Shown one piece after another: positions 10,297 to 56,995 of a DNA stretch of 64,000 nt. Under the pieces are notes generated by a model. It was not told the origin of the DNA. It did no database searches and worked only from the letters and a program-made list of their open reading frames with translations. The position numbers and the translations under genes are program-made. The DNA is taken from positions 620,001 through 684,000 of the forward strand of contig JARGXX010000109.1 of assembly GCA_030374765.1 (NCBI GenBank), given 5' to 3'. Origin of the DNA: Agarophyton chilense (taxonomy: Eukaryota; Rhodophyta; Florideophyceae; Gracilariales; Gracilariaceae). Every line of letters begins with the position of its first letter. The first letter of the stretch is position 1.

Positions 10297-10298
10297 AG

Positions 10299-10310: not shown

Positions 10311-10523
10311 TTAGAAGCCGTTCTCGGACTTTTGGGTTGGTCATCCACGTGTTGGAATATCTCTTGGAAGAGGAAGCACCGTCGTGAAGATTTGTTGTAG
10401 TGGTCCCCTTTGGAAAGGGTGGAATTGGTTTTTATTTTTGTTTTGTGTTACGTCATCCGTTCTCCGGGAATCTCGTGATCGAATTTCATCGTTACCCCGA
10501 ATCGTCGGTGTCGTGTCTGCAGC

Positions 10524-13613: not shown

Positions 13614-13904
13614 GTGTGCCTAGACCCTACGTTGACACCCTCAAGGGAACTAGAACGTTCCAAGATGGAAGAGAAGCCCGAACAGGGAAAAGTGTACCCG
13701 CAGGAATTCGTTATCGATCGCATCGTGCGTCACATCTACACCCCCGAGGGAGAAGTTCACTACCAAGTCCGATGGTACGGATTCTCGCCTGATGAGGATA
13801 CAGTGGAACCCATTGAGCACCTTCCGAGATCTAAGGTTTTATCCTATTACCGACGCGCTCGGGTAACCTTGCCTCCAAGTCTGGATCGTGCCCAAGTCGG
13901 GTAA
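13614..13904 (+). CDS. Chromodomain of G1 (C-terminal end of the former pol)
   Basis: Chromodomain of the type carried at the integrase C-terminus of chromoviral gypsy elements, thought to steer integration to marked chromatin. The core at about residues 27-80 reads YPQEFVIDRIVRH, then VHYQVRWYGF and DTVEPIEHLPRSKVL. The WYGF motif is kept; the usual W of the TWEP box is V. It is an open 96-codon remnant without the upstream integrase, so an independent start is doubtful. Homologous domains sit at the same place in G2, G3 and G4. Confidence 0.8.
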   Translation: MCLDPTLTPSRELERSKMEEKPEQGKVYPQEFVIDRIVRHIYTPEGEVHYQVRWYGFSPDEDTVEPIEHLPRSKVLSYYRRARVTLPPSLDRAQVG

Positions 13905-14059
13905 GCCACCACGGGAACTGGTGTGGATGGGACCTCGAAGTGAGGAAGATGTTGGACCTCTGAAGAGGAATTGAGGAGAGTATCCCGAAGAACACGTATT
14001 GAGAGGGAAGTTCTACTGGCCCTCGGCCTAGCGCCGTTAACCGGGGAACACAACACCGG

Positions 14060-14225
14060 TTATCGGGACAGTTTATGATGAAAAAAGGAAAAGAAGACCC
14101 GCGAAGTGTAGAAGAAGATTAAGAAGAAGATTGGATCCTAAGAAGGAATTAAGAAGATGAAGTAGAAGTTAAGATCCTAGGAAGGAAGAAGAAAAGAAGT
14201 TATGCAAATATCACAAGTTTACTAT
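14060..14225. repeat. Purine-rich spacer between convergent genes of G1
   Basis: AAGAAG-rich plus strand between the chromodomain frame and the antisense gene. Spacers with the same strand skew relative to element direction lie in G2 (36070-36340), G3 (29880-30060) and G4 (25600-26045). It probably serves 3'-end formation of the two converging transcripts, which is inference. Confidence 0.45.
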
Positions 14226-14266
14226 TGTCGCCAAGCTATGGACTCCACAATTGCCCGAAGGCGGAA

Positions 14267-15203
14267 CTACGGAAAGCCCGAGGAGGGAGCCGCCCCACCG
14301 TTGAGATTCTGACCCTGATGGTACGCCGAGGCGAAAGCCAACATCTGGCTCACATCCGTCATACCCGGGGTAATCGGAATGCCTGCGTTCACGAGGCCTT
14401 GTCGCACACTATCCGCTTGCGGAGTGGCAACCGGCGCCTGCGCAAGGGTGTTCACACCCCACCCGGGGGGAGCAGATAGACCGCCACCGGATACATTCGC
14501 CGCCGCAGCTGAGGTCGTTCCCACTGGTTGGAAGGATGCAGATGGCTCCAGAGGGAGTACTCCACTAGGAGCTGGCACGTCGTTATCCAACGCTGGATCG
14601 TCCAGGTCTACTGGAGGCTCGTACTCGTAATCGTCGGTATAAATGAACCCCGTCGGGTGTCCCACCGGCATCGGTCAAGGCGAGTCAATCAGCGCCCGTG
14701 CTTGCGCCGCGCTGATACGAACCCCTTCGAAGGGATTGTAATAGACCCAGTTACCGGAGCCCGGATCGTACCGGCCAGGAGACTTGTCTCGCGCGGATCC
14801 TACCCCTGCGGGTTGATTTGCCACTGGAACTCGATCCCATTGGGTGTTGTCGATCACGTCCAAGATTGGATACAGGTCCTGCACGTTGCTGGCCGAACCC
14901 AACGCTGGGACAAGGTCGATCTGACGCATGATGGTCCGTAGCATCGGAGAAATCTCCACCCTGCTGGGGAGCTTCGTTGTCCGCCGGCGCGGAGGCCGAT
15001 GGCCCCGAGAGTGGGTTGATGACGTATGGGTTCATTCCCTTGAGAGGGCTGGTTGAGACCGCTGTTGCGAGAAGTTGCTTATCGCCGAAAGTCGGAGGAG
15101 TATAAGAAAGTTGTACCGATGTGCCGGTTTTGTGGCGATCCTCAGAAGTGGTGAAGGACCCCATTGGGAGATTAGTATGTATAGTGATCGGAAAGTTAGA
15201 CAC
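14267..15203 (-). pseudogene. Antisense gene of G1
   Basis: Member of the antisense family found in G1-G4, function unknown. Minus-strand pieces: 15203-14960 (PYVINPLSGP), then after a frame change RVEISPMLRTIMRQIDL, VPALGSASN, LDVIDNTQWDRVP, SPGRYDPGSGNWVYYNPFEG, ISAAQARAL, then GHPTGFIYTDDYEYE and a C-terminal SVRQGLVNAGIP block. These align in order with G2 (RVWGISPTVRKYAGELDL, LVLGSHAN, LVDVIGSVEW, SPGR, IISEQARFL, RQFL-DPGFP). Breaks lie near 14965 and near 14670. The first Met (15203) is only 43 bp from the 3' LTR. No known domain was recognised. Confidence 0.75.
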
Positions 15204-15232
15204 CCGCGGCTCGGAATGTTCTTCCTCGTCTT

Positions 15233-15245
15233 AAGGAGGGGGAGA
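15233..15245 (+). promoter_or_regulatory. Polypurine tract of G1
   Basis: AAGGAGGGGGAGA directly upstream of the 3' LTR, where plus-strand DNA synthesis is primed in LTR elements. It also confirms the LTR boundary. Confidence 0.75.
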
Positions 15246-16158
15246 TGTAGAGCAACGCCCAGTCAGGGGATACTTGAAGATGCAACTCATAGAATGAGGA
15301 TTGAACCCTCCGAGGGTTATGATTATGATCCCCTCTAAGGTGTGCTGAGGTGGCACTGTTTTCTGGTTATATTTCGCCTATAAGGGAAAATTCGGATGGC
15401 CCATGGTTGGATTGGCCCCGTGATACACGTGGCTTAGTTTTGGCACCGATTTTCGGATATTTGTAGAACGTTGGACTTTTGGGCCCTGGCAGTGGGATCT
15501 CCACGTGTATGGCCCTGAGCAGGTCTGCACTACTGTAGAGTTTAGTTAGTGGGCCCTACTTAGGGAGGCGAGATCTGACAGTCCGAGCTCAAAGTAAAGG
15601 GTAACCAAGGTTGGTCTTCGATACCTTTAGAGGTTCTTCGTCGCCATCGTTTCGGCCTTACAACCAGGAACGGGCTCTGGTTAGCAACGCCTGCGTAGGG
15701 ACACGACTCCACTTGGAGAGTGCCCACGTTTGGGTTCCGTGCAACCACCCCCTTGGGACCGCTCAGACGACCTGCGTGCACGATACCCCGTGGGGGTTCT
15801 GCTTACTTGTTGCGTGCTTTTTGTGTTTCCTTTCGAGGACAGGTTTTCGCCCCTGTATTGGGTTTCTTTTGTTGTTTCGCCCCTTTTCTGGTTCTCGGGT
15901 CCGGTGCCTGTTAGTGCCCGACCCTCGCCCCGTTTTTCCTCTTCGCCGGATTTTCCCCCATTCTTTGGGATACCCATACCCATTCCCGATCCAACGGTTT
16001 CTACCCCTCACCTCCGTCGGTACTGCCGGAATCCCCCGTGGGAGTTACACCCCACACTACGGGTGGAACGGAGGGCTCTGTCTCTGAGTCTGCCTCCCCC
16101 AGGGAGCAAGGCTTCGAACACCTTGAGAGCACTTCCCGTCGCCGGGTTTTCCTCCACA
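15246..16158 (+). repeat. 3' LTR of G1
   Basis: 913 bp, gap-free match to 9384-10296. Followed by AGTAT, the target duplication. Read on the minus strand it would also be the upstream region of the antisense gene. Confidence 0.95.
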
Positions 16159-16231
16159 AGTATATCGACAACCTCAAATTTCAAACCTACTGCCACTATA
16201 CGACAAGCTTTGTGGAAGTTCATTCGACGAA

Positions 16232-26045: not shown

Positions 26046-26569
26046 TGCGCAGACCGATTACCGTTCCATCCTTAACACCCTTACCTGCACAGAGTTCTTC
26101 TATACTTCCGATCCCTTACCCTATCCCCAACAGCTTGGCTTTCTTATAGAGTTGACAGGATGTCACACGTGTGGTATAAACCCTAAACTGTACTGAAAAG
26201 TTGGAAGCTACCCACTATCAGGACGCTACACGATCTTTTCGAGATCATCACCCCGTTTCGGACTAGGATGGCTACCACCTAAGTGGTTGCCTTGAAATCG
26301 GGAAATCAGACCGACGTACATTTCAGAAACGTTACCACTGGCATAGGCACTCCCCAGACCCATCTCCCAGGGGAACTAGGAGATCACGTTCGCCAAACAC
26401 TCCGAGACGGCATTTAACCAACATGGAACGGAGGAAAGTCAACTCGAAACGTCCATTACCGGGGCTAGAGGTTTCCCACCACCTGAAACGGCAGAGGCAG
26501 CCCCCTAAATGGTATCCATGTCCATATATAGCATGGCACGTTTCCCTGCGTTATGTGGCTCATCCTTCA

Positions 26570-27060
26570 CTTGGTGTGCATTCGTCTCATTGGACTCCAT
26601 TTCATCGTTGTGATAATTATCGAACATCCGGTCCTCAGCGTCGTAGAAGTCGTAATACTCTTTCGCATACATGAAACTGTTCGAGTGCCCCTTGATGATA
26701 TACAGCGGAGCAACCCAAAGTTCTTTAGCCTCCTTCGAAGAGATCTCATGTCCCTCCCAGGAGTTTAAATAGATTATTTCAACCGCGAGCGGGGTTCGAA
26801 ATCCGGGTTACTAGTCCCGTCCCAGGCACCGGTTGCTCATCCACTCTATGAAAGAAAGACTGAGGCCTATCCAACCTGGTCGATATACTCGAGAGATGTC
26901 GCCATCTCATGGGCATTGTTTTCCCCACCTAGTGGGATGGGAAAGTCCAAGGCATGAATGCCGGTGCGAACTCGTATTGGGACGAATATTAGTCGGTACT
27001 AATCGAAAATCTCTAGGAGAACTAAAACCGTGGTTCGGGTGGCCCACTAGGTGCTGATAA
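26570..27060 (-). pseudogene. Antisense gene of G4, decayed
   Basis: Minus-strand remnants line up in order with the antisense gene of G1 and G2: LDFPIPLGGENN (26955-26905; LGSxxN block), LEYIDQVG then a TAG where the family has Trp, PDFEPRSRL, YLNSWEGHEISSKEAKEL (26775-26720; IS-x-QAR block) and GHSNSFMYAKEYYDFYD (compare GHPTGFIYTDDYEYE in G1). The N-terminal half is missing or unrecognisable beyond 27060. Its minus strand relative to plus-strand G4 repeats the family layout. Confidence 0.65.
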
Positions 27061-28141: not shown

Positions 28142-29813
28142 ATGTTGAATTCACAAACGTCGTACGACGACCTGGATATTCCAAAACATCAACAGAAAAC
28201 TACCTCTTCGGGAAATCCAGCTCCGAGATCACGAGCAATGCCGCTTCCGGCTTCCTACTCGGGTCCTTGCACAGCATACCTTTCTTCTACAGCATCCGTT
28301 CTGCAACCATCATCGTCTGCGATTTAGAGTTTCCCGCATTATTCAGACCTTGTCAGGCGGAATCCGATGCAGCACACAGCGCTTTTTGCTCGTGCTCCCT
28401 GTTTTTACACCTCAACTATCAACGACGAAGATCTCCTTGGTCAATACGTAGCCGCTGGTCGACTTTCTGACAACATTCTTTGGTATGCGCTATGTACGAG
28501 CGACTGGTTCGGCCACCGCGCGATTCCAAACAACGCGATAAGTCGCTTTGGATCCAAAAGCGTGGCGTAGACCCGCGAAAAGTTCACTCGATAATTGTAC
28601 CAGCTGATATGCCGCGTGATTGGGACCGTTCCCTTCAACAAAGCTTGAAATTTCGACACATGGATCTCCAGATCGAAGGAAGAAGCCTACTAGTATGCCG
28701 AGAACCTCGCAGATATGGATTCCCAACCATGGTGTGGCGTACTTGGAGTATCCAACATGGCTCTCTGTTTCGACAGTCCTGAAAATCGAGCGGAGTGTTG
28801 CTACATTCGCAAGCGCGATATTTTCTTTTAGAAATGTCCTCGATGGGAAAGACGTACTCGATCACGACTAGGATACTTGGTGCAGTACCAAATGCTAGAG
28901 AACCGATCCAATTCGGTGTAGTTTGCGCATCGGGCGCTACGTTCCCAGCCCCCGTCATTGGCATGAAAGCGAGAGTCCTCTTCGTTGTTCTATGGAGCTC
29001 TCTATACTGATTACCTACGTGGGTTCTCACGTTGCAAATGATCCATTTTCCGGTTATTGGGTAGCCGTCTACTGCGAATTAATCGCAAAAAGAGCCCAGT
29101 TCGTTCTTTGGGATTTGTAGGAAAACTATCGTCTGTGGTACATGAGCCTAATGGTTCGACACCTAGCAAGACTGCTCGATCTTTTCCTAGTATTGGGATC
29201 ACGTGCAAATCACGAAGGGTCTCAGCACCTGATGAGTGTCATGGACCAGACTGATTGGACACTGGTTCCCAGCGAACAGAATGCAAGAGATAGACCTCGT
29301 CGTGACTCTTCCCCTTAAAACATGGCGCCTGACAGCGATTTTATAGGGTATGAGCCATGGCCAAAACAAAACGTCGACGGCGATCACACCGAGACCAAGC
29401 GAGAAAACCCACGAGTAATGCCTCCTACAAAGCCAACTAGCTATAAATGGGAGTCTGTGCCTTTCAATGTTGACGCACTCGAGGAAGAGCTCCAATAAGT
29501 CGATGACGATTAGGAGCCTGAAGAGATGTGCCTTGAAATCACCTTTCCAAAGGAAAAGGACGGCATTCAGCCGATAAATCTGCCTTAAACACAAGCGGAT
29601 GGCCACGAGTCAACACCGACAGCTAAGATTCAGACTCCTGCAAACGAACCCGAACTGCCCGTGGTGTCTTCACACAATGTGAAACTCGGCAATCTGACGC
29701 GGTTCCTCGATGAATCTGCGATTCCTACCGATGCCATTCAAAGCGACCGAGAGCAGATGATGAGTCTCTTGCTCTTCTCGATGGGCAACCATCCTGGCGC
29801 TTGGAGCGCGTGA
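28142..29813 (+). pseudogene. Antisense gene of G3
   Basis: Plus-strand copy of the antisense family, opposite to G3's gag-pol. In order: a Pro/Ser-rich start (AMPLPASYSGPC, AYLSSTASVLQP); GQYVAAGRLSDN; HRAIPNNAISRFGSK; PRWERRTRSRLGYLVQYQM (nearly identical to G2's PRWERRTRSRLGYLVPYQM); GRYVPSPRHW; YVGSHVANDPFSGYWVAVY; RLLDLFLVLGSRANHEGSQ; MDQTDWTLVPSEQN; RRDSSP; GYEPWP; and a C-terminal LTRFLDESAIPTD block ending at the TGA at 29811. Several frameshifts and stops. Function unknown. Confidence 0.75.
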
Positions 29814-33439: not shown

Positions 33440-33444
33440 CTCTT

Positions 33445-34160
33445 TGTAGTATCCGCTCTAACGGAGAGAGCAGACACATGAGACAGCGTTCGGAATGCCG
33501 ATGGGTCGCTTGCGGCGAAGGAAAAGGGGTGGTAGAGCTACAATACCAGCGAGCTGGAAGTGGGGTGTAAGGCCACTACTCACCCGCGAGGGTGAACAGT
33601 GCAACAGTAAAACGTTGATGGACCGTAGGTACGAGACGGTTCGTGAAGTGGTTGGGGGCTGACTATCTATTATAGCTCGTCCGGATCTCCGGTTAAGGAA
33701 TCCTAAGCGAGGAACAGAATAGTCATGATGCTCATGTTGTCTCCTTTACTTGGAGTCGGCGCTCACCTCTGGTACACTATATACTGTGTACCCGGGTGAG
33801 TGCCCAAATAAATATATAAATAATACCCAGTGGTCAGCCACTTAGCCAAACCACTGTATGGATATGGTCCCTAATGGACGTCTAGCTACAAAGGGTAGTA
33901 AAGCCCTCCACGTGGATCGCCACTACATGCGCCGTTGCCAATATGGCACTCCCTTAGGAAGAGTCGCAAATATGCGCGCGCCGTGGTAAGCCACTCGACC
34001 CATGACGCCACGTGTTCCACTAAGACATTCTGCCTCTAGGCATCCTATGCGGGATGCCGCTTCATATCAAAATGCTGATGATAACACTCACTCATGAGTT
34101 CCAACCGCGACTTCGCAAAAAACCAACCTATCGGATTCCCCGACATAGTAGAATACTACA
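33445..34160 (-). repeat. 3' LTR of G2 (left)
   Basis: 716 bp. I counted 21 differences from the other LTR in the first 286 bp and 10 in the remaining 430 bp. It directly borders the antisense gene, whose frame opens at 34185. Confidence 0.9.
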
Positions 34161-34328
34161 CACCCTTCTCGTTAAGCACGAACCATGGGGGACGCAAGAA
34201 GCGTTTATACGCAGTCAGACCGTTGTTTCGGGTACTCATCGTCATCACGAATTCCTCGCCGCCCGACAAACTCTTACAGTTTTCAACAGCATTCTGTTCC
34301 TCACCGCTCTTCAGCTCGATCTCTTGCG

Positions 34329-36019
34329 ATGGATCCGAACGCCGGGTCCAACCCGTTTCAGCCCTCCTCTGAGGATGTGCCTTCTGGGGCTCCGTCAAAC
34401 ACGACTGGTTCTGCGTCGCAGCCTACTGCTCAACTCGGTCCATACCGTTCGTTCTCCACCCCGTACACCGGATTCCGGTCGGTACCGTTACCTCAGCCAA
34501 ACGTGGCTCCGATGCCGAACGTGGCTTACGTCTCCTCTGCGGGTGTGATTCGAGCTCCTTCCCGTCGTGCTCAGTGGAGCTACCCGCACCCGGCAAATTT
34601 CTATGGACAAGATCCTCTCGACAACGTTGAAATTTTCGCGCAAGTTCCCTGGTGTGATCCAGTGACTATCCGCGATGACGCGTTGATACAACAGTATGTA
34701 CACGGTGGGTACTTCCATGACGGTATCCGGAACACGCAATTTATAGCGACGACTAGGTGAGCCATATTGCTTTGGCAGACAACGCGATTGCGCGATATTC
34801 GACGGAAACCTTGTCCGAAGCCCGTACGCGGTTCACCAGGCTGATTTACCAGCGTCTTCTCCGATTCATCAGTACGGTTCTCATCCCTCAGTACTGGGAA
34901 CTAGATACCTGGAAAGCTCGTACCGACGGTGAAGGTTACTCGTATATCGAGACACTCGTTGAAGTCGATGTTAGAGGTTGGCGCGGTGTGCGCGGTGTGC
35001 GCAGTGTGCGTGATGTAGCTCTCTGCTTTCAGCAACCTCTTCTCCGTGCGGAGTTCCACTTCCTTTGAAAGCGTGACATTCCCTATTCGGATTATCCCCG
35101 TTGGGAACGTCGTACTCGCTCACGTTTGGGCTATTTGGTTCCGTATCAAATGATCGAGATTGACCGCATACGGCGGAACGCGCGCTTCGGCCGCTACATC
35201 GGTATTCCGCAGCATTGGGCGGCGATCGAGAGTCCTCGTGGTTGCCCTGTGGCGCTCCCACCGGCGATCTCGTACATCGGGTCCGCGTTGGTTAACGACC
35301 CGTTCTCGGGATATTGGACTTTGATTTATACCGAGTTTATCGCCAAGATGGCCGTCTTCCTCCTGTGGGATGCTTATGATACCTTTAGAGTTTGGGGAAT
35401 ATCGCCCACAGTGCGAAAGTATGCGGGAGAACTCGATCTTTCCCTTGTCCTGGGATCCCATGCGAACCATGCCGACTTCCTCCATCTTGTGGATGTAATC
35501 GGCAGTGTCGAATGGTCTGGAGTGCCACCTGATCAATCCGATCGCGGAACCCGTGCAAGACACTACGACCATTCTCCTGGACGAACAGCAAGTGCTGGAG
35601 ATTTCGTTTGGTACGACCCCTGGACGCACCAGTTGATCATCTCCGAGCAGGCTCGCTTTCTTCGGGAGAACCCGCGTGACATGCCACCGAACCAGCTTAC
35701 TGGATACGTGTACGATGCTACTCCACCCGAGAACGGAGAGGAACCGTATGAGGAAGCGCCGGGAGCTGAGGCTGAACTCGGTTTCGAGGACGAGCCAGAG
35801 CTGGCAGGCGTAGCGACTTCCGTCGATAAATCCGTAGCGGCGGCAGTTGCTCAAGATTACTTTCATGGGTTTACCAAACGACCGAGTGCACTTCCGGTCG
35901 AAGATCCAGGCAGGGATCCGCTGAGGCAGTTCCTTTAAGATCCGGGCTTTCCCGTGGACCAAGTTGAGGGTGATCGCGCACAGCTTCTTGCCAACCTGCG
36001 TGCTCGCACGTCTCTTTGA
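34329..36019 (+). pseudogene. Antisense gene of G2 (best-preserved copy)
   Basis: About 563 codons on the strand opposite to gag-pol; I do not recognise the protein. Start ATG at 34329 (MDPNAGSNPFQP); the same frame is already open from 34185, right beside the LTR. In order: Pro/Ser/Gln-rich N-terminus; QYVHGGYFHDGI; a basic helix-like part (TRFTRLIYQRLLRF); PRWERRTRSRLGYLVPYQM; GRYIGIPQHW; YIGSALVNDPFSGYW; RVWGISPTVRKYAGELDL; LVLGSHANH; SPGR; IISEQARFL; an acidic tract; RQFL, stop, DPGFPVDQVEG. Damage is light: frameshifts near 34755 and 35070, and one TAA at 35936 before the conserved C-terminal block. No signal peptide, zinc motif or obvious enzyme motif was seen. A structural or RNA-binding role is possible but unproven. 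Confidence 0.8.
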
Positions 36020-36140
36020 TGATCCTAGAAAAGACTCCTAGTCAACAACCTTGCGATGGTATCTTGATACCAATAAAACTACGGTGACTTCGTGTCTTCA
36101 CGTTCCCTTCTTATCTTCTAGTCTTCATCTCTTCTCGCTT

Positions 36141-36256
36141 CTCGAGTTCTTAACTTCTTCTTCTTGCTTCTCGAGTTCTTCAATCCTTCTTCTCGCTTCT
36201 CGAGTTCTTCAATCCTTCTTCTAGCATCTCGAGTTTGTCATAGGTTATAATCAGTA
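36141..36256. repeat. 29-bp tandem repeat in the G2 spacer
   Basis: CTCGAG recurs at 36141, 36170, 36199 and 36228, exactly 29 bp apart, in pyrimidine-rich units of the type GAGTTCTTCAATCCTTCTTC. It lies between the ends of the convergent pol and antisense genes. Confidence 0.8.
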
Positions 36257-36349: not shown

Positions 36350-37441
36350 TTAGAAATGGGATGTGCCCATGAGCCCGACTATCGAGGAGTCGATCTCCCT
36401 GGGGAGTGCTAATCGCATGCGTCGATTATATCGCACGAGCTGCGAACGGGGGATGTGAGCTACAGGTTCCCACGTATCCGCTTCCGGAGGAAAACCGTAC
36501 CAACGGACTCGATACAGTAATTCTCTAGTATCATCATGCTCCCCATGTTCACATATGCGATCCATAACATATTCCTGGGCGTTTCCCAATGCTTTCGCTG
36601 TTGCCGCGAGACTCCTGTTAACAGGTTTGAAATGCCTTAGGGCTGACCCAAGCGTCTCTGTGTTAGCAGTCTCAGCTTCGCTAAGCGTTCGCTCGTTGAC
36701 TGACTGTCGTTCTGCCCGCAGGGGCAGTGTACTCATTCCTTGAGAACCTTTCTCAGATAAAGAGCTATCCTGTTTTCCAGGTTCCATAGAAGCGTACTTC
36801 TTGCTACTTCTCAATTCCATTCGTGGATGAACTTCCTTCGGTTTATCCGATTCTGAACGCTGTTCGGTGGACGATGGTGCTTGCGCCACTACAGGGGGCG
36901 ATACCTCTTCTTCTTCCTGCCCACAAGGGATGGGAGCCGATATCGGCGGAACGTCGAGTGACGCTTCACCTGACGGTTCAGCCTGAAGCGGAAACGGCGC
37001 GTTTTCGCGTGCACTCGTTTCCAAGTCCTTGGGGCCAAAGTCAACAACATCTTTCCTGCTTTCAGGTTCTATTTCTGTACTTACGGGTGTGCGCCAGCCA
37101 CGGGGCATATCCCGATACTTCGAGAAGCGGTCGGTGATTACTAATACGTAGCGATAACCTCGCCTTGAGCGAATCAATTCCCCTAGGATGTCAATACTGA
37201 CGTATTGTAAAGGGGCTTTCGCCTGGAATAACGTCATCGGTTTCCGCTTTCTGTAAAGCTTCACGCGATTCTTCGCACATGTCGTACAAAACCTCACTGT
37301 AGCATGGAAGTCCATTGCCAAAGTAGACCAGTAAAAATCTCTTCTTAGAGTCATGAACAACTTCGTTCCTTCTGGATGACCAGACAGCTTGCTGTAGTGT
37401 GCCAGATGGAGTACTCGACTCTTCAAGACGTGTGGAATCAC
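36350..37441 (-). pseudogene. Integrase with deleted core, linker and chromodomain of G2
   Basis: Open for 363 codons. The zinc-binding HHCC region is present (HLAHYSKLSGHPEG, FCTTCAKNR), as is the first catalytic Asp (YVSIDILGELIRSR). After LVITDRFSKY the frame passes straight to the charged linker: the second Asp and the Glu region (LLSDxG, NGQVE in G3) are absent. The chromodomain is complete (YVMDRICEH, YRVRWYGF, DTWEPVAHIPRSQLV). The deletion keeps the frame, so a protein with DNA and chromatin modules but no integration activity could be made. Confidence 0.85.
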
Positions 37442-39960
37442 GATTTGATCATGCTTTCGACATGTCTTAACAGTATTCCTCGTGAATCGAGTGAAAAGAG
37501 GAGCTCCTCCCCCCCGTTAAGACGAGAGTTTATTGACGCACAAAACGTATCGGCGTGTTGCTCATTGAGGAGCTCAGTGCACGACATTCGCTCGAGTTGA
37601 ACTGAAGGGCCAATGTCTGCTAATGCAAGTATCGGATCTGCATCCGAATAATCATCATGGGTATCTTGTTCCTCTTCTCCAAAAGAGGTTGAATGGGTCT
37701 CCATGTAGAAGCAAGGTATCTCTTCATCGAATTCGTCTTGGGTTTCGCCCAGTGTTTTGAGTCGCGATAGCGCGTCAGCTTGGACATTGGCCAATACCTT
37801 CTTATACTTCACTTCGAAATCGAATTCAGAAAGGCGTAAGCGCCATCGTGTGAGACGACCAGACGGATCTGTAATGCCCAGTAACCATCGTAGAGAAGAA
37901 TGATCCGTGTTGACCGTAAAACGTTCTCCTTGGAAATACGGTCACAATGTGGTTAGAGCCCAAACGACTGCAAGGCATTCCTTTTTCTGAAACTGAATAC
38001 TTATTCTCAGCTGTGTTCAGCGATCTTGACCAGTAACCAATGGGTTTGCGTTCACCATCAGGTTGTGTTTGAAAAAAATCACACCCTACTTGGTACTCGC
38101 TAGAGTGGGTATCCACTGAGTATGGAAGGTTGGGGATGGGCAGCGCCAGGACTGGGGCTGTAATAATCTTTGTCTTCAGCGTGTCGAACGCTTCTGCTTC
38201 AGCTTGTCTGAATTGTTCCAGCTGTACTGGTTGTCCTTTACGCAGATTTGCGTCGAGCGGTGCCGCTATATGCGAGTATCGCGGCACGAATCGTTGGTAG
38301 ACGTTGCACAAGCCGAGGAAAGAACCCAATTGCTTCTGTGTCAAAGGAAGTTGTACTTCGTGGAGAGCCGCTGTTTGTGCCTCTTGAATGGCGAGCTGTT
38401 CCGGCTTGATCACATGTCCTAAGTACCGGACGGTGCCAGCGAACCATTCGCATTTCTTGAACTTCAAGGTGGTACCTGCGCTCTGTAGTGCTTTGAGGAT
38501 CTCTTCGACATGCCGTAAATGGTTTTCCACATCCTTTGAAAAGATGATCACATCGTCCAAATAGACTAAACAAGTCTTCCACTTGTATCTTGAGAGCAAG
38601 ATGTCCAGAGTACGCTGGAAAGTAGCCGGTGCATTCGTTAAACCAAAGGGCATCCTTTTGAAAAGATAGAGACCGGCGTGACACGCAAATGCGGTTTTAT
38701 CTTGGTCTTCTTCCGCTACAGACACCTGCCGAAAGCCAGAGTTGGCGTCCAACGTGGTAAACACGTTCGCTTCTCCTAAGCTGTCAATACATTCGTCCAT
38801 TCGAGGAAACGGGTATGTATCTCGAACTGTAACTGCGTTCAGTTTTCGATAATCGATACATAATCGTAAAGAACCATCAGGTTTTGGAACCAGCACCACT
38901 GGTGAGGCCCAAGCAGATTGAGCTGCTTCGATTACTCCTTCTTCCAGCATTTTTCTGACATTCTCTTCTTCGATTTGGCGAGTTCGCGGTCCCGCTCTGT
39001 AGGGTGGTTGGGAGATGGGTCGTGACCCTGGGACCAAATCAATGTGGTGTTCCGTAGCGTAGATCTCTCCTAGTTTTCCACTGCAAATGGATGTATACTT
39101 CTTCAGCATAGACCTGATCTTCGTTCTGTAGTGTTCCGACAAATGTGCTAAGTCTAGCTCATCGACCAGGCTCTCTGGATCCTTTGCCGTTTGCAATTGA
39201 TCTCCAGACGGAGTTTGCAGTTCTTCGTCTGTGTCACTGACGTGGGTTAATCCCAATACTTCTGGAGTAGAAATATGAGTAGGGACCACCACTGTGGGAT
39301 GAGGCAAAGCTGTTGCAACAACCTGATTCATCGGTATCTGATAATCGTTATCGGTGAAGTTACTCACTAGTATCCAAAAGGGGCTACCAGGATCAACCTG
39401 AACAATGCCGTTAGCGACTAGCAATCCACGGGATTCGTACATCCGAGTATTCGGTTGAATTACCACGAGTCCGTGTCGTTCTGTTCTTACTTGAACCCAA
39501 GTTTGGGTTTGCGCCTTCAGCATGGCACTCTTCGCTACTCGAATCCTCGGCGAGACACGTCCTCGGGATTTCCCGTATTCCATAGATGGTGGAAGTGGAG
39601 GTGCTTCAGAGCAACGACGCATTGGCTTGCTAACAATTGGTACCATTGATCCATCATCTAGTTCGACTAGTTTTCTTTGCGGGCGAATGGCTTCGACAAA
39701 CTTGTCGCAATAATCACATCCCAGTAACTGGTACAGCTAACATCTTACAGACGATGAATTCGACTAGGACTACAAAGCGTCCCAAACGCACCACGAGTCG
39801 AACTGTTCCCAGTGTCTTCACAACATTTTTGTTGGCTTCCCGGATGTACTGTAAAGGACCGTATCGAAGAAGTTCTAAGTCAGCAGGAGCGAGCTCCGAT
39901 TCCTGGGGTAAAGTTCGGACCAGCACCTGTGTCCAGGATAGTCAATCGACGAGATCACAG
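37442..39960 (-). pseudogene. Protease, reverse transcriptase and RNase H of G2
   Basis: Protease motif ILDTGAGPNFTP near 39920. Reverse transcriptase is open for 606 codons (39646-37826): EEGVIEAAQSAWASPVVLVP, LRLCIDYRKLNAV, MPFGLTNAPATFQ, VYLDDVIIFS (catalytic YLDD at 38563-38552) and FLGLCNVYQRFVPRY. RNase H starts SVDTHSSEYQVGCDFF; a frameshift falls at EKG/ECLAV near 37990 and stops lie near 37960 and 37813. The tether QADALSRLKTL is at about 37775. Enzymatic residues of reverse transcriptase look intact. gag lies upstream. Confidence 0.85.
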
Positions 39961-40367: not shown

Positions 40368-42609
40368 TCAACTTTTGGCTTTCCAATACATGCCCGCCGG
40401 TACGCGGCTTTTTTCTTCTGAGAGTGCTTCATAATTCGTCATGATACGACTCAGATCCTTTGCAGGAAGCGTGCATTCTGCACTCAAATGGTGTTTTCCG
40501 TAACATGAATAACATATCAAACCGTCACGGCGGTTGGTCAAAATAGGTTGTGAACGGTATGCCGTGCGAGTATCCACCCATCCGGGTTTCCCGTTCTTAA
40601 AACCCCCTTATGGGGGGGGCACCGTGTAGGGACGGTACATAGGGCGACGGCCCTCCATAGCCATAAGTGCTTCCTAGTCTTGAGACTCCGAGTGTGGGAG
40701 TTCCACTGTAGGTACAGGAGAGTCCGTATATTCCATTAAATGGACCGCCTCCTCATGAGAGTCACTCCCATTGGGTGCCAACGACGAATCTCGTGAGTGC
40801 ACTGGAGATTCCAGATGTAGCAGTTTGCTGCGCTGATTAACTCTGGCGGAGATCTGCTCCTTACCCATTGAGGTTCCAAAAGCCACTGAACGACGGGGGC
40901 TACCACGCGCTCTGGCTGCGTCTCCTTCACCTTTCGCAAACTGAACTAACTCCGAAAAGGAGACTCTTCCATGCTTTTCTCGACATCGAGCTACGAACGA
41001 CTTGATGCTCGGGTCCAGCCCGTCGATGTACAAGGTAATCTTGTCCTCCGTCGAGTGGACGTTTCCACAGCGGACTGAGGCTTTGTCAAGCTTTGAGCTG
41101 TAATCAGCTTCGCCCTCCTCAGGCTTTTGGGTCACATCCCTTAGGTCCAGGATCGCCTGACGTATCGCGTTTGAAGTCGCGTAACTGCGCAGCAAATACT
41201 GCACCGCCTCTGGCCATGAGGTAACGCCGCCTTCATCGGCTGTCAATGATCCGCATACGGAACGATATTGCTCTAAAGCAAAACCCTTCAAGAATTGCGG
41301 TAAAGACAAAAATGCCTGTGGTTCACTCATGTCTAGAGTGTCTGCTTCGGAAACGAATCGAGTGAGAAACTCGAGAACAAGAATGGGGGTTTTCCCATCA
41401 AATGTTAAGTCATTAAGGCCGATCGTCAATCGTTTGATGTGATCCTTCACCTTTGCGGTTTCGCGTCCTTAGCGCTTCTTGCTCTTCACCTTCAGACGGT
41501 AGTACCTGTACTTCAGGACCTTCCGATAAAGCGGATTCGTGCACAGGAGCACCTTCAATCCTGCGTAAGGTGAGCCTTTTTTTCTCATTAACCACCAAGA
41601 CGTGTTCTTCTTTCGAGATCGGGACCTTCGATAACCATCATCACCGTCGTCGTCATTTGACGTATCTGAATCATCAGAATCATCAGTACTGGAACTGAAA
41701 CCCTCCGTGCTTGACGATTCATCACTCGAATCACGTGCGGACTTCCGCTTCTTACGTCGTGACTTCGACTTCTTCGAACGAGCATCCTTCAAAGGAGCTC
41801 CTTCCTCTTCCATCACAACTGGTTTATCAGCAGTCTGCGCATGAACTGACGCCTCCAGGCGTTCTAAACTAGGGTTAACTCGAGTGAGGACTTCCTCTAC
41901 ATCCACGGTTAAGCCGGGTAGCGCATCGGGCGTATTCCCGTACCTCTCCAGTTGATGGTTCAAATCCTCACGTAGTGTTTTCACTGATGCAGAGACCTGC
42001 TTTCCATTGTCTTGACGAACAAGTGCTTGATGCGCACTGCGTAATTGTTCGACATCAGCGATAAGAGCAGCGATCTGCGATTCCAACGCAACCATGCGCA
42101 CACGCGAAGCGCGTGACTCAGACTTGAGACGACGCACTTCCCTGCGCAAATCATCCTCTTCTTGAGGTCGGATGGCCTCAGGGTCAACTACGGCTTCTGT
42201 GGTGGGCGTGACTGCCGCTGCCACAGGGGCCGGTACATCCGAGGGATCTCGTTCATCATTCACCGAGCGTGAGCGCGACATCGCTTGACGATACAGCCGC
42301 TCTCCGACTTCAACAGATGAGGCGAGCCTCGGTTTCGGGGGTGGTCCCGCAGGACCGGGGTGACCAGTACTCGACTGGCTTCGGGTCTTCAGCCTCCTAG
42401 ACCAAACCTGAGTCCAGGTGCGAACCAAATGATGTCTTGGACTTCTCGACCACGTGTTCAACAACGATGAATTCTGCAATTGCCGGAGGTGGTTCGATAA
42501 ACAATAACTGTAGTGATTCCACTTCTTCCAAGTATCGATATCGATTCCACGTTCCAGGAACGAATTGTTCAGTGCAGCTGACCACAGTGGTTCTATGTCG
42601 GGAGACCAC
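40368..42609 (-). pseudogene. gag of G2
   Basis: Particle protein. One frame spans 42609-40674 with a single TAA at 41469. In order: Ser/Arg-rich start, likely coiled coil (about 42170-41900), a basic and acidic/serine tract (KKSKSRRKKRKSARDSSDES), TNPLYRKVLKYRYYRLKVK, the stop, KDHIKRLTIGL, LTFDGKTPILVLEFLTRF, YIDGLDPSIKSF, and after a frame change near 40640 a CCHC zinc knuckle (CYSCYGKHHLSAEC near 40500). Homologous over its length to G1 and G3 gag. The start codon is unclear, because the frame is open into the LTR. Confidence 0.8.
42597..42608 (-). promoter_or_regulatory. Primer-binding site of G2
   Basis: TGGTCTCCCGAC on the minus strand, two bases inside the 5' LTR end, identical to the site in G1. 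Confidence 0.7.
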
Positions 42610-42610
42610 T

Positions 42611-43326
42611 TGTAGTATCCGCTGTAACGGAGAGAGCAGACACCTGTGACAACGTTCGAACTGCCAATGGGTCGCTTGCGGCGAAGGAAAAGGGGTGGTA
42701 GAGCTACAACACCAGCGAGCTGGAAGTGGGGTGTAAGGCCATTACTCGCCAGCGAGGATGACCAGTGCAACTGTGAAACGTTGATGGAATGTAGGTACGA
42801 GACGGCTCGTGAAGTGGTTTGGGGCTGATTATCAATTATAGCTCGTCCGGATCTCCGGTTAAGGAATCCTAAGCGAGGAACAGAATAGTCATGATGCCCA
42901 TGTTGTCTCCTTTACATGGAGTCAGCGCTCACCTCTGGGACACTATATACTGTGTACCCGGGTGAGTGCCCAAATAAATATATAAATAATACCCAGTGGT
43001 CAGCCACTTAGCCAAACCACTGTATGGATATGGTCCCTAATGGACGTCTAGCTACAAAGGGTAGTAAAGCCCTCCACGTGGATCGCCACTACATGCGCCG
43101 TTGCCAATATGGCACTCCCTTAGGAAGGGTCGCAAATATGCGCGCGCCGTGGTAAGCCACTCGACCCATGACGCCACGTGTTCCACTAAGACATTCTGCC
43201 TCTAGGCATCCTATGCGGGATGCCGCTACATATCAAAATGCTGATGATAACACTCACTCATGAGTTTCAACCGCGACTTCGCGAAAAACCAACCTATCGG
43301 AATCCCCGGCATAGTAGAATACTACA
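42611..43326 (-). repeat. 5' LTR of G2 (right)
   Basis: 716 bp, gap-free partner of 33445-34160, with TGTAGTAT...ATACTACA ends. Confidence 0.9.
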
Positions 43327-43331
43327 CCCCT

Positions 43332-50225: not shown

Positions 50226-51410
50226 TTTCCGTTGATAATGATGCCAATCTGTGGCGTCGCTATGTTTCCAATTGGGTCGACCTCATGAAAACTGCTTCTG
50301 AAAAAGGTACCGATAAGGCCCACAAAACTCTTTATGCAACGCTTGGTCGCCAGATTTATGATCAAGAGTCTGTAGTCGAAGGAGCTCAGCTATACGGCGA
50401 AATCGAATACAAACAAGAAGACCAAGTGAAGGCGGTACAACAGATAGTGTACTTAGTTTCAGTGATTCCTCCCATCGCCATGGTCACCTGGTTGATAAAC
50501 TCGTTTCAGAAGAACACCAGTTGCCGTCGTAAGAAGCAAGAAGATCTTCAAACGTTAGTTGCACGTTTTTGTGGTTTGGCTTCGGAACACCTTATGCACA
50601 CCGGTGGAACCTCTTCTTCTCAAGTTGAGGAAGTGTTGGCCGTAATATTATTGAACAACGCCGACCTACCCGAAAGTACTCTTAACGACGCTGTACTTCA
50701 GCTGGTCGGTGAGGCAGACCATTTCGATAAGGTTGCTCGGGAAGCCAATGAAGATGTCCGAGTTCCTTCTAAACTCATCGAACAGATTCGTGGATGTGCA
50801 GCGGCACCGGAGCTCAAAAAATCATAGGGTCCAATGCAAATTAAATAAAGACAGTGTTCAAGGTCTCATGAAACTCATATAGTAATTTCGTGAAACCGTC
50901 AAGGAAATAATGAACACTCTTCTTGCAACCGTGTCGGAGCTTCCAGATGAAAACAATATGAAATCAGATGATCCCATCAAATCCATCAGGACTCCATTGA
51001 GGTATCGTTCTGTTCTGCATTTGAATGATGCGGTTAAAGTCCTTCGTTCCTTCACCATGTGCACAAAAGCATCGAATCAGCACCTCACTCGCAATGATGT
51101 TGATGTTGATTCAATATTCAAACAGCGTCTCCAGAAGGCTTTGTTCAGTCTTGGTGAACCTCTCGTGTCTGCCTCTGGTTCTGGTGGTGCATTCGGTTCT
51201 TCCAATTTCAATTCTTCGTCTAAGAATAAGATGAAAAAGAAGAATATCGCGAACAAACAGTCAAGGCAATCCTGAGACGGCGGCAGAAAGATCCCTTTTT
51301 CGAAAAACAGCGCCCCGCCGACTCGAACTGTTTCGATTGTGGCTCAAAGACACACCTTCGTGGTGACAATGCATTTCAGAATCCTATTTGGCTGACAAAG
51401 AAGCGTAGAC
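50226..51410 (+). pseudogene. gag of C2, 5' part
   Basis: A frame of 180 codons (ATG at 50285, already open from about 50226: NLWRRYVSNWVDL) and a second of 122 codons (50910-51275) with a Gly/Ser-rich, lysine-rich end. A zinc-knuckle-like CFDCGSKTHLRGDN follows near 51335 in another frame. The assignment to gag rests on position before protease and integrase and on the knuckle; the protein itself is not a close match to anything I know. Confidence 0.5.
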
Positions 51411-51721
51411 TGTTATCGAAAGCCTAATATCGATGACTTGTACCACTACACTATCGATACGCCCTTTCGTCTACGAACTACACTATCGATACGCCCATTC
51501 GTCTACGCAGCATCTTTCCTACTTAGGACTGATAGAGAAAGTTATAGTTCCTTCTCCTGATCGGTAGGATTTGTTTTTACGCGACATTAAACTGTTTACG
51601 CTACTGACCAGTGTCAGTACGCTAGCGCTCAGCCCTCTTCGCCTGTCCCCGCGGACACCCGGAGAACCTGCGTTCTTCGGTAGGCACATAACCGACCCCC
51701 CCCCCCCCGAGTTTGTCGACA
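51411..51721 (+). repeat. 5' LTR of C1
   Basis: 311 bp. Contains a 32-bp tandem duplication at 51445-51508 (unit starts ACTACACTATCGATACGCCC) and a 13-C run at 51697-51709. Confidence 0.9.
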
Positions 51722-51753
51722 TTCGCGAATTAAAACAAACTGCATCAATCACC

Positions 51754-53464
51754 ATGTCCGCCGACCCCGCAAAACCATGGGGAACAATTGCCCTACACAA
51801 CAACTTGCAGAGAGGTCTTGAGAACTCGTTCTTAAGCTACATGCAGACTGTTCCTCCGCTGAGCGGTGAAAATCTTCTTGAAGCAATTCGTGAAGACATG
51901 GGAGCCATGCAACTTGTCAACCCGGATATAGTTAGCAACTACGAAATCTACAAACGAATTCGTGTGTTCTTGGAGCAACGAGAAAAAGATGTTCCTCAGA
52001 CAGCAGATACTGGAAGGTTGATTGCCAAAAGAGTTATAACAGCCATTTGGAATGGTGAGGAGTTTGCTGTGCAACGTTAGCGTGCTATGGAATACTTCGA
52101 CGCCGTTCGAAACGGAGATGTTATTCTGTACTCACCTGGAGGAAGTGGTTCACCCTCAGCTGCACAAATACCGTTCCAGCTTCAAGTTCCACAACCTATC
52201 AATGCCGATAGAGGTCCTGTAGCTCCGAATGTGGGAGTAGCAGATGAGGAATATGAGAACAAGCGCGTAACGTTTTTCACCAGCCGTTACCGAGGTAAAC
52301 GCGACAAATTCAAAGGCGATCTTGAAGAAGATTGGAATGATCATGTTTCTTCTTTCATGGACTACTGTAATCTGCAGAATATTAACGGTGATCTTAGAAT
52401 TCAGTACCTTCATTTTTCTCTCGCAGAAGACGCGCTGCACTTCTTCAAAGGAGAATTGAAGGGCTTGATTCAAAACTGGGGCGCTGTTGTGGTATTATTC
52501 AATGCTCGCTACGCTTCGGAGACGACCAGGGAAGACATGTCTGCAAAGTTAGAGGACCTCCATCTAACGGACTTCGTGACAGAAAATGTTTCTGAACGTG
52601 AAGCTTTGGACCTCCTCGTGAAAGAAATTGATCGCCTTGCACCAATGGCCCACCAGGAAGACAGAACGGACAGACGCAAGCGCAATTTCCTTCGCAGCGC
52701 AGTCCCAAGGCATTTCATGGTCCCAAAACATCTTATCACAAGTCAATGCCAAGCATCTATCATACAGAGACTTGATGTCGGAGTTATTCAGTGCTGAAAG
52801 AAACCAACGTCAGTTCACGGCAGGACAAAACCGTGCGCAACCAGCGCAGAAGACGCAAAGGGCGTCTTCGGATGATATTGCCTTCCGTCTATCTCTTTCT
52901 ACTGCAAACTTAGTTGAAGGACCACCGGATTATGATCATTCAATTCACTTTGCCGGACAAGGACGTTACGCCAGACCGCCGACCAGCCGTTCAACATTCA
53001 AACCCCCGAGATTTGAGACTAGTCCTTACGACCCAATACGAGCCCAGCCGCAACACAAGAATGCTCCCATGATACTCAGGGTCTGTTGGAACTGTCAGCA
53101 GAAAGGTTGCAGGCTCTTCACCTGTCCCAAACCCCGCAATGAAGCCCGTATTCACCGAAACAAACAGCTAGCGAAACAGTGGTACAAAAAATCTCGGTCC
53201 AAGAGAATCAACTTCACCGGACTCGACGATGACGCCTCTGCGGTAGTCGAACAGTTGACAGAATCGCTCCTTGTTGAGGATCACTCACCCGACCCAGAAC
53301 AAACCCCAATCGCTGAGGCTGGAATTAATCAAGATACAGCAAACGCCGACTCAAGTGCGGCTTATATATCCAACGCGCTAACCAGTCGTGAACTCCCAAC
53401 CTCAACCACTTGGCCACTCCTGTACGTAAACGACATGCCATACAGCTCGGATGAAGGATTTTAG
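51754..53464 (+). pseudogene. gag of C1
   Basis: ATG at 51754 (MSADPAKPWGTIALHN), the first in frame after the LTR. The frame is interrupted by one TAG (52078-52080), then continues to about 52705, where a frameshift moves to the frame ending at 53464. A helix-rich domain (KGDLEEDWNDHVSSFMDYCN, LHFSLAEDALHFF) is followed by a zinc-knuckle position reading CWNCQQKGCRLFTC, with Cys instead of His. Its zinc-binding pattern is therefore C4, or it is degraded. Confidence 0.75.
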
Positions 53465-54111
53465 ATGGAGATCGACTCGGCCGCACGGTCTTCAATGAAA
53501 GGCCCAAGAATCCCCCATATATCCGTGACTCCACACCAGCGTACACATCGTTGCTCTCGCAATGCTCCCCTGCACGTTTTGTCGCCCGCTCCCGCCACTC
53601 CTATCCAAATCACACCCCTATCTTTGCCCACAGAATCGTCAAGGAAGTACTGAACCTTCGTACAACCCCGAAGCGCAGAGTAACATATTCCCGCGGCAAA
53701 TTCGAAAATGGCTGTATTGACCCAGGGGCACACAAATCGTTTTGCGGCCTGGCTCAAGCCAAGGCCTAGTGCCAGACTTTCGGGACGAACTTTAAACTGC
53801 GTCCGTCACCGTATGCCTTCAAATTCGGCGACGGGAATCGAAACAGCTTAGGGCAGCTGCACGTCAGAGTACCCTTACCCGCAAGCGCATTCGACTCTTT
53901 TTGGATCGATGTCGTTGACGCCGACATACCGTTCCTGATTGGACTCGACCTCCTTGATCGCTGCGGTGTCTACCTAAACAACGTGAATAATGAGCTTGTG
54001 CATCACGTTACAAACAGTTTCGTTTCTCTCTTACGGAAGAACGGTCACATGTTTTTGTTTTGGAAGAACTCTGAAGTCTTGTTTGCGAGAGCCGAACTAT
54101 CCAAGTAACAT
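53465..54111 (+). pseudogene. Protease region of C1
   Basis: Aspartic protease fragment: GCIDPGAHKSFCGLAQ at about 53710-53757, where the usual DSG/DTG is DPG (one T-to-C change would do it). Then FKFGDGNRNSLGQLHVRVPL, WIDVVDADIPFLIGLDLLDR and a stop at 54106. A TAG after QAKA breaks the frame. Proline in the catalytic triplet should abolish activity. Confidence 0.65.
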
Positions 54112-55060
54112 GCGCATTTTTTCCATCCAAGTGCCCAAAAGCTCTATAACCTCTTAAAACGCGCTAAAACAGAAGACACTACGATGGATACCCAACGGAT
54201 ACTCCACGACATTGCTCAAAAATGCAAATCGTGCAAGTACTTCTTTGCTTCTCCCTTTCGCTTTCGTGTTTCAATTCCGGAGGCTGACATCCGTTTCAAC
54301 CAAGAAATAGCCCTGGACCTCATATACATTTCGTACAAACGGCGCAAACGTATACCCGTCCTTCACATAGTTGACACGCACGCACACTACCAAAACGCAG
54401 TCATACTGAAAGGTGAATCATCCGCGCACGTGTGGGACGCTTTTCTGGAAGCATGGGCTACCACTTATACTGGAATGCCAAACAAAATGCGAACAGACCA
54501 AGGCTCCATATTTACCTCCAAGTACTGGGAGAAATGCACGGGAGACTTCGGAATTGAACTTCAAATATCAGGAGTACAGGCACATAACAGCATCGGAGTT
54601 GGAGAGCGCTATCATGCACCACTGAGACGAATCTTCAACACTGTGATGCACTCCAGTCCTAATCTTGACCCCGAGCTTGCGCTACGATTTGCCATCAAAG
54701 GCATTAATGACACCATGGGGCCAGAAGGCTTGGTTACATCCCTGCTTGTGTACGGCACACTACCGCGACTTCCAATCACTTTTTCTTCTGTTGCCAGACA
54801 GACTGACCGATTACGCGCGTTGGAAGCAGCTCGGAAAGAAATGGCCCAGATTACTGCCAAACTCCGTATCCAGCAGGCTCTCGGATCTCGTATTCCCCCC
54901 GCATCGAAGTAACTCATTGAACCAGGGCACCATGTACACTATTACGATGAAAAGAGCAAACAGTGGCACGGATCACACAAAGTACTGAAGACCATTGACA
55001 AGGAAGTTACTTTGGATATAGATGGACGCCTCGCTCGCTACAACATTGCACTCATCCTTC
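54112..55060 (+). pseudogene. Integrase of C1
   Basis: The zinc region starts with FHPSAQKLYNLLKRA and ends CKSCKYF. Catalytic core: IALDLIYISYK (first Asp), MRTDQGSIFTSKYWEK (second Asp), IGVGERYHAPLRR (Glu), so the DDE triad is complete. The frame is open from 54184 to the TAA at 54910, with the C-terminal part (HHVYYYDEKSKQWHGSHKVL) continuing beyond it. Confidence 0.8.
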
Positions 55061-55196
55061 CAGACCCCGCTTTCCACAATGATCGTGAACTCCACCGCCT
55101 TTTTTTGAGGGTTTACACCATTTACGGTCCAAACAAAACCTGTCAGTACACTTTACGGAGATTCTACACCCTTCAGACGCGCGCTGTAGAACCCAA

Positions 55197-56677
55197 TTAT
55201 TTGACGATGAGAAGGCCAAAGAACTTGCAGGTTCAGCACGACGTGGCGTATACGAAATCATCGTCCGCGAAGAATTGGATCCAAAATCGTCGCACAACAT
55301 CCTTGGTGGTCGTTTCGCACTTTTGATTAAGAACAAGGATACGGATAATGAAGTTTACAAAGCGCGTTTCATTGCCCAAGGACACACTGATGTCGAAAAA
55401 CATCTTCTGGTCCACACGGGTACCACGCGGAAGCAGTCTTCCATCCGAGTCCTCGTCGCCATTGCCGCACTATTTGGTTTCCCCCTCTGGTCACAGGACG
55501 TTTCGCAGGCCTATTTGCAGTCAGCCGACCAGCTGATGCGCGACATCTACGTGAAACCAACAGCGGAATTTCGACTTTCGGAGAATCAGCTTCTGAAACA
55601 ATTGAAGCCACTCTACGGCCTAAGCAACTCAGGTGATTACTGGAACTCCACATTCACAAGGCACTTGCGCCACGATCTATCAATGACCCCCACAGCCGGA
55701 GACTTGTCCTTGTTTTTCAGAACAGTGAATAGCAAGCTTATTGGCGTAACTGGGGCGTATGTCGATGACACAATCAGTACTGGAGATCTTGAATTTGATA
55801 ACCAGTCCAGATTAACCGAAGTTCGCTTCGAGTCCAAAGACAGAGAGTACCAGAACTTCAAGTTCGCTGGAATCAATGTCCAGCAGATATAAAATGCCTA
55901 CAAACTCCACCAGACACAGTTTGCCAACTGTATCAAGCTCCTACGCCATGACGCTACGTATCCAGAGTTTCGATCGAAGTGGCAAGAATTGGCTTGGTTA
56001 ACACACACTAGACCAGACATTTCGGCCCCCGTCAACTTGCTGGCTCAGATTACAGAACCACAGTTCAACTTGGCCGCCATCAAATCAATCAACGAACTGA
56101 TCCGCCGCACGCGAGCTACCTCAACGAGAGGTCTACTTCAACACCGTCTTAACAAGAACAAACTACACATACGAGCGTACAGTGACAGTTCTTTCTGCAA
56201 CACCCCATCGCTGCACTGACAACTTGGCTATTTGATCTGTTTGATGGATGACACTGGTTTACACAACATTACACACTACAGCAGCTACAAAAGTCAAAGA
56301 CGTGTTCGATCGACAATGGCGCAGAGCTATATGCTTTTTGCGACGCTTTTGACTACGCGTATCTGCTGAAGCGTGAACTGCAGTCGATGTTGAATGAAAA
56401 TGTTCCGCTCATTATGTTGACAGACAGTGACTCTGTATTCAAATCTATCATCAAGGGGACAACAACAACCGAAAAACGTCTCATGCTGGACATTATGGCC
56501 GCGCGTGAAGCGTATCACAACAAGGAAATAAGCAACATCGGCTGGGTTCTCGCTACGGACAATCCTGCAGATGGTTTGACGAAAAATAAGCCGTGCTCTA
56601 GACTTGAACAACTTCTTGACACCGGATATTGTCCCATCCCGGTTCGACAGTGGATACTTCGCAGCGTAGACGTTTAG
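55197..56677 (+). pseudogene. Reverse transcriptase and RNase H of C1
   Basis: Copia-type reverse transcriptase (RVT_2): EVYKARFIAQGH, LWSQDVSQAYLQS, LKPLYGLSNSGDYW and the active site AYVDDTISTGD. The frame has TAA at 55890, then TRPDISAPVNLLAQI and AYSDSSFCNTPSLH, with TGA at 56217 where Trp is expected. RNase H resumes in another frame (ELYAFCDAFDYAYLLKREL, LTDSDSV) and ends NPADGLTKNKP, the copia C-terminal signature. Stop at 56675. Three lesions in about 490 codons. Confidence 0.85.
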
Positions 56678-56689
56678 AAAAGAATCGAG

Positions 56690-56995
56690 TGTTATCGAAA
56701 GCCTTATATCGATGACTTGTACCACTACACTATCAATACGCCCTTTTGTCTACGAACTACACTATCGATACGCCCATTCGTCTACGCAGCATCTTTCCTA
56801 CTTAGGACTGATAGAGAAAGTCATAGTTCCTTCTCCTAATCGGTAGGATTTGTTTTTACGCGACATTAAACTGTTTACGCTACTGACCAGTGTCAGTACG
56901 CTAGCGCTCAGTCCTCTTCGCCTGTCCCCGCGGACACCCGGAGAACCTGCGTTCTTCGGTAGGCACAAAACGGACCCCCCCCGAGTTTGTCGACA
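56690..56995 (+). repeat. 3' LTR of C1
   Basis: 306 bp, partner of 51411-51721. Followed by TAGAC. Confidence 0.9.

Follow-up and report, generated by a model that had tools for sequence, protein, structure and literature searches.

In gracilariacean red algae, one group of chromodomain Ty3/gypsy elements has a third gene, which is read in the direction opposite to gag-pol and lies between pol and the 3' LTR. The starting point was a stretch of 64,000 nucleotides of Agarophyton chilense (hereafter the window), in which a sequence-only reading had noticed an antisense gene shared by four gypsy elements, named G1 to G4. All copies in the window are damaged, and intact antisense frames of 558-608 amino acids are present in many copies elsewhere in the same genome. 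Comparison of these intact frames supports purifying selection on the encoded protein, for which a regulatory role in trans is the reading that we favour.

The antisense gene of G2 and its host element

The gene and the element that carries it are best introduced with G2, the features of which are listed here with their window coordinates.

34329..36019, plus strand: antisense gene of G2 (subfamily A), decayed, with its ATG and TGA ends kept and intact homologues elsewhere
34185..34328, plus strand: in-frame upstream extension with an ATG at 34185, uninterrupted in those intact subfamily-A copies that were read
36072..36077, plus strand: possible poly(A) signal AATAAA of the antisense transcript, a motif after the stop
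33444..34165, minus strand: 3' LTR of G2, upstream of the antisense gene
42610..43331, minus strand: 5' LTR of G2, from comparison of the LTR pair
36353..37441, minus strand: G2 pol, integrase zinc-binding part and C-terminal chromodomain (Integrase_H2C2, 3.7e-11; Chromo, 2.8e-7), convergent with the antisense gene
37829..39646, minus strand: G2 reverse transcriptase/RNase H (RVT_1, 2.5e-35)
41472..42770, minus strand: G2 gag-region ORF, named by position, its open frame running into the 5' LTR

In the G2 copy, the frame changes at least once and is interrupted by two in-frame stops, and the limits first proposed for it hold: the ATG at 34329 sits at the same place as the frame starts of other subfamilies (MDPNAG.., MNP.. 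or MSN..), and the TGA is the stop at 36019. In intact subfamily-A copies, use of the upstream ATG would give a protein of 608 instead of 560 amino acids, an extension not seen in the other subfamilies. This N-terminal extension begins only about 20 nt from the LTR, and both 34185 and 34329 are candidate translation starts.

With a Chromo match of 30.8 bits against a cut-off of 25.1, found together with Integrase_H2C2 and RVT_1, G2 is classified from its chromodomain and reverse transcriptase as a minus-strand chromodomain Ty3/gypsy element, a chromodomain alone being no proof of a chromovirus. PMC12477816 reports chromodomain gypsy lineages of Ectocarpus outside the chromoviruses. The integrase core reached only E 0.12 in the Pfam search of the 36353..37441 region, and no Pfam gag domain was detected in the 41472..42770 ORF, to which similar stretches are present in G1 and G3. 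The two LTRs of G2 are identical at 689 of 722 sites. Between pol and the 3' LTR, G2 has a long ORF opposite to gag-pol, the arrangement that characterises the aORF-3R of plant elements. Short tandem repeats (shift of 29 nt) occupy positions 36132-36239, in the gap that separates the end of the antisense gene from that of the convergent pol; they are pyrimidine-rich on the plus strand and purine-rich on the sense strand, and one B and one D copy likewise have TC-rich tracts after the stop.

Copies in the other elements of the window

Relatives of the G2 gene were recovered in the three other elements at the following places.

14270..15035, minus strand: antisense gene of G1 (subfamily D), an internal-deletion derivative with an in-frame stop
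28328..29789, plus strand: antisense gene of G3, in pieces in different frames, nearest to subfamily B by its N-terminal text
26547..26998, minus strand: what remains of the antisense gene in G4, as two collinear pieces found by profile

Six-frame BLASTP within the window connects G2 with G3 (E 1.9e-23, 5.8e-12 and 2.6e-9 among others), G1 with G2 (E 1.3e-11) and G1 with G3 (E 6.7e-7), and gave no pairwise match for G4 at E 1e-3. A profile of relatives, which included those of G1-G3 and none of G4's own type, detected G4 on the expected strand and in the right order (26873-26998 with E 0.003; 26547-26804 with E 1.1e-5). Because of these pairwise and profile scores, chance is very unlikely as the source of the similarity among the window copies. 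The proposal of an antisense gene between the chromodomain end of pol and the 3' LTR in all four elements is therefore upheld by these scores as far as relatives are concerned. However, none of the four copies is intact, as all are broken or shortened, and G4 retains only a weak remnant that is visible by profile alone. G3 (27203-48339) is an older element, split by the insertion of G2, and identity between its LTR-like ends, located near 27.2-28.0 kb and 47.6-48.3 kb, is 79-81% over the best-matching stretches.

Intact copies and subfamilies in the genome

The A. chilense genome that was searched comprises 79.8 Mb in 135 contigs and contains at least hundreds of copies of the antisense ORF. 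Such counts are lower bounds for which the best candidates were scored, and they concern elements with the ORF, from which the searches began, elements without it falling outside. The copies form four subfamilies (A, B, C and D) at 30-59% amino-acid identity. Intact proteins were obtained from subfamily A (L029, L020, L024 and L013, all of 608 amino acids), B (L034, 558 amino acids), C (L062, 560 amino acids) and D (L061, 575 amino acids). Six further D copies each have the same 575-aa frame; having been picked from stop-free rows, they are not a sample of intactness.

Intact copies are many in A and D, and B and C are mostly decayed. With a piece of G2 as query, 142 matches were scored out of 1512 first-look candidates, and 19 of these 142 rows, counted by eye, are subfamily-A matches free of stops inside the match with an open frame of at least 600 aa. 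For subfamily D, 54 of 77 rows are stop-free inside the match by the same kind of count, some with shorter open frames. Among the 23 B-type loci retrieved (L031-L053) only L034 is stop-free inside the match, and one stop-free row (C115:1748238) was found for subfamily C among the rows nearest P0010. Some places are perhaps duplicated contig ends, such as three equal-score rows on C114 and C115 in the subfamily-A list.

Downstream of the antisense gene, a convergent chromodomain on the opposite strand was found at 61 of 62 loci, the sequence of the remaining one (L062) being too short to tell. This corresponds to 58 of 59 distinct places (L055, L056 and L060 repeat L002, L011 and L010, and L001 is G2 itself). 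The gene stays with chromodomain elements; as it was the antisense ORF that served to find the loci, this does not mean that all such elements have the gene. Of 30 subfamily-A loci, 28 have an AATAAA motif no more than 150 nt after the stop (0.3 would be expected from shuffled sequence; the copies are related by descent). The motif also occurs after the stop in the single B copy inspected and is absent within 200 nt after the stop in the one D copy examined.

Purifying selection on the antisense protein

A dN/dS test had been suggested for the four window copies, and it was run on intact genome copies instead of on these broken ones. By the NG86 method, dN/dS of intact frames is 0.12-0.18 in three A-B pairs and 0.12-0.15 in three A-C pairs, values that are approximate because dS in these six pairs (2.1-3.4) is near saturation. 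In the same six pairs, 61-66% of fourfold sites are different, and the difference at position 3 of the antisense frame amounts to 0.56-0.63 versus 0.24-0.37 at positions 1 and 2. Synonymous sites are saturated in the pairs with D and in B-C, for which dN is 0.55-0.88. Since dN/dS is 0.12-0.18 and the third positions of the antisense frame vary most, the comparison supports purifying selection on the antisense protein and not on the overlapping sense ORF.

Inside one subfamily, the signal that can be read from the alignments is modest. In 28 ungapped subfamily-A copies over 270 codons, N/S in the antisense frame is 0.55 for singletons and 0.63 for shared changes, and the other five frames give 0.67-1.18 in the singleton and shared classes, the lowest of these sharing its third positions with the antisense frame. 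These ratios are without correction for transition bias, and the set includes G2 and copies with stops. It represents 28 of 34 distinct loci, from which L014, L016, L021, L023, L025 and L028 were left out for a length unlike the ungapped 270-codon match. Changes carried by at least four copies are too few to judge. Within D, the values are 0.34-0.83 (21 pairs of seven copies). As recent copies are mostly decaying, the weight rests on the values between subfamilies. The original claim of selection on a protein is borne out in this form, from open frames, low dN/dS, homologues elsewhere and the convergent chromodomains.

The similarity could alternatively stem from a coding frame on the sense strand, where G2 has a 280-aa open frame (35120-35962, minus strand) that two of the six intact copies compared also keep open for 271 codons. 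We regard this origin as having a negligible probability: in the four remaining copies (A_L020, B, C and D) it stays open for only 103-180 codons, its N/S within subfamily A is 1.0 for singletons and 0.86 for shared changes, and antisense position 3, not position 1, varies most. It is also conceivable that the antisense RNA is the functional product and the frame a by-product, since the authors of PMC7264820 leave a regulatory role of the antisense RNAs themselves possible. This explanation is strongly disfavoured by the low dN/dS, by the codon-position pattern, by the lowest N/S being that of the antisense frame, and by homologous proteins that share 30-57% identity, whereas synonymous sites are saturated or nearly so between the subfamilies that were compared by DNA.

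Protein features and homologues

The antisense product is predicted to be a soluble protein of about 550-610 amino acids. Its family was not recognised in the sequence-only reading, and our searches agree, with no accepted Pfam, PHROG or PDB match. In 13 members, Pfam at E<=1 detected no zinc-knuckle, Transposase_28 (PF04195), SMC or bZIP domain, and the last three also gave nothing at E<=10 in four members. A search of the own genome for PF04195 found nothing and was uninformative, as it also found nothing in 14 of 14 control genomes. Among nine proteins, the pI is 5.2-6.4, basic patches are only modest, cysteines number 2-11 and there is no clear membrane span, the highest 19-residue hydropathy being 0.93-1.63. 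The hydropathy of P0016 is borderline, at what we take to be the usual limit for a membrane span. Two AlphaFold models are poor (mean pLDDT of 50.6 and 44.3), and the one that was searched gave no structural match. From conservation and these low-confidence models, we tentatively draw a layout that begins with a Ser/Pro-rich N-terminus, probably disordered, and continues with a core of about 350 conserved residues, a linker that varies and a short C-terminus of two helices; the models suggest that the core is mainly helical.

A helical core and the position between pol and the 3' LTR, which is that of env-like ORFs elsewhere according to PMC7264820, might together point to a structural or particle-associated protein, i.e. 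a second Gag-like or Env-like product encoded on the other strand. Yet the env-like ORFs of plant gypsy elements, which are likewise extra ORFs after pol, are described in the same text as sense ORFs, some with membrane segments, whereas the red-algal ORF is antisense and has no clear one. Given also its cysteine numbers, the lack of a zinc-knuckle at the threshold above and the sense gag-region ORF that is already there, we consider a structural product rather improbable.

Beyond the window, where a search had been advised, homologues were found by protein search in Gracilariopsis chorda, as two hypothetical proteins (BWQ96_08668 and BWQ96_10156), in addition to seven A. chilense entries (P0005-P0010 and P0012) and four further entries (P0011, P0014, P0015 and P0019). 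The two Gracilariopsis proteins and the four further ones share about 30-57% identity with subfamily A or D proteins, and over 406 residues P0010 has 100% identity with one place of the own genome. The search relies on shared five-letter words and does not imply absence elsewhere. The homologues of Gracilariopsis and the four further entries are known from protein sequence alone, and no homologue outside such elements was found for comparison, which leaves some room for the capture of a host gene, or for the nesting of a foreign element, in place of inheritance as part of the gypsy element. Such a capture is nevertheless very unlikely, given that strand, place and order are unchanged across 61 of 62 loci and across the four elements of the window, and since no host-like single-copy homologue was met among the best candidates scored in the own-genome searches.

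Deletion derivatives of the G1 type

G1 (9384-16162) has LTRs that are identical at 915 of 917 sites. It keeps the chromodomain (8e-17) and the start of the protease-reverse transcriptase region (6e-71). For the reverse transcriptase/RNase H and the integrase zinc-binding and core part, comparison with G2 gave nothing beyond chance rows (best E of 0.19). The junction of the deletion in its antisense gene is matched across by 46 of 150 scored D-type rows of the own genome, counted by eye. Target duplication, primer-binding and purine tracts were likewise read by eye: AGTAT is the likely target duplication flanking G1, and the 5' LTR is followed by AGTGGTCTCCCGAC, a putative primer-binding stretch common to G2.

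A non-autonomous lineage of the G1 type has probably been amplified. Its spread appears recent because of the rows that match across the junction, the unmatched reverse transcriptase/RNase H and integrase part and the near-identical LTRs. This recent spread of elements without a full pol and without a full antisense gene fits a supply of both functions in trans, and also fits a dispensable antisense gene. Deletion derivatives that have spread without the antisense gene offer a natural test of trans action.

A possible role in trans

In the mechanism that we propose, an unspliced antisense mRNA would start in or just inside the 3' LTR and end before the convergent pol gene. LTR and ATG lie only about 164 nt (G2) or 211 nt (G1) apart, which would allow for a promoter inside the LTR or adjacent to it. 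The protein would then act in trans as an accessory regulator of the expression or integration of the element, a role that others have suggested for plant antisense ORFs and reported in the case of HTLV HBZ. By analogy and exclusion, an accessory trans-acting regulatory protein made from an antisense transcript that starts in or near the 3' LTR is the most likely explanation, to which we give about an even chance. The regulatory part rests on analogy, as there is no recognised domain, the AlphaFold models are poor and no structural match was found. Against a regulator may be set the pI of 5.2-6.4 with modest basic patches, the D copy without AATAAA, the modest signal of selection inside a subfamily, and the deletion derivatives, which would also fit a dispensable gene.

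The protein might instead be directed at host defence and suppress, for instance, silencing by small RNAs or chromatin. An accessory protein under selection in a high-copy family would suit this role, and convergent transcription could make double-stranded RNA, creating a need for a suppressor; the domain and structure searches gave it no support, and we see it as unlikely.

Relation to known antisense genes

HBZ of HTLV-1 is a small bZIP nuclear protein expressed from the 3' LTR. The red-algal protein, of about 560 amino acids and with no bZIP match, differs from it, and the likeness considered here is one of arrangement: in both cases a retroelement has an antisense gene towards its 3' end, with the 3' LTR as a possible promoter (PMC7264820, PMC11963269). 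In these two papers, antisense genes of LTR-retrotransposons are described mainly from flowering plants, plus a fungal case and some retroviruses. The sequence-only reading was right that some plant gypsy elements have them. The plant Ty3/gypsy aORF-3R named there are Grande gene23, RIRE2, Retand ORF4/TRP28 and PvRetro13, and their function is given as unknown; nuclear location and an own promoter are reported for Grande gene23, a TRP28 domain for Retand, and HTLV HBZ is the retroviral parallel. Position, opposite strand, many copies and conservation at the protein level are common to these plant ORFs and to the gene described here, whereas the host is here a red alga and no Transposase_28 or SMC domain was detected. 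Moreover, Retand belongs to a non-chromovirus lineage according to this material, whereas the red-algal element carries a chromodomain. Grande and RIRE2 were compared by their published description and not by protein sequence. Boty of Botrytis cinerea, also set beside our case by description (PMC7264820), has an antisense ORF between pol and the 3' LTR outside plants.

In the open-licence literature, we found no earlier report of a red-algal antisense gene of this kind. The red alga represents a separate lineage, in which the gene is compact, lies in a single frame, is intact in many copies and has diverged into four subfamilies, and if the protein is expressed, it provides an independent case for asking why retroelements keep a gene on the opposite strand. 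A bolder proposal, which we advance tentatively and would not bet on, is that red-algal chromodomain elements fixed, independently of plants and retroviruses, an antisense gene for a new fold that controls the element in trans, in a convergent HBZ-like arrangement at least as old as the split between Agarophyton and Gracilariopsis.

Other features of the window

The window also contains a copia-type element at 51401-56981 (RVT_2 and integrase core), the LTR stretches of which are 96% identical. At 59367-59939 lies another RVT_2 stretch, with a score under the family cut-off. An ORF at 5536-6387 with a eukaryotic-type carbonic anhydrase domain (E 6.9e-30) is a probable host gene.
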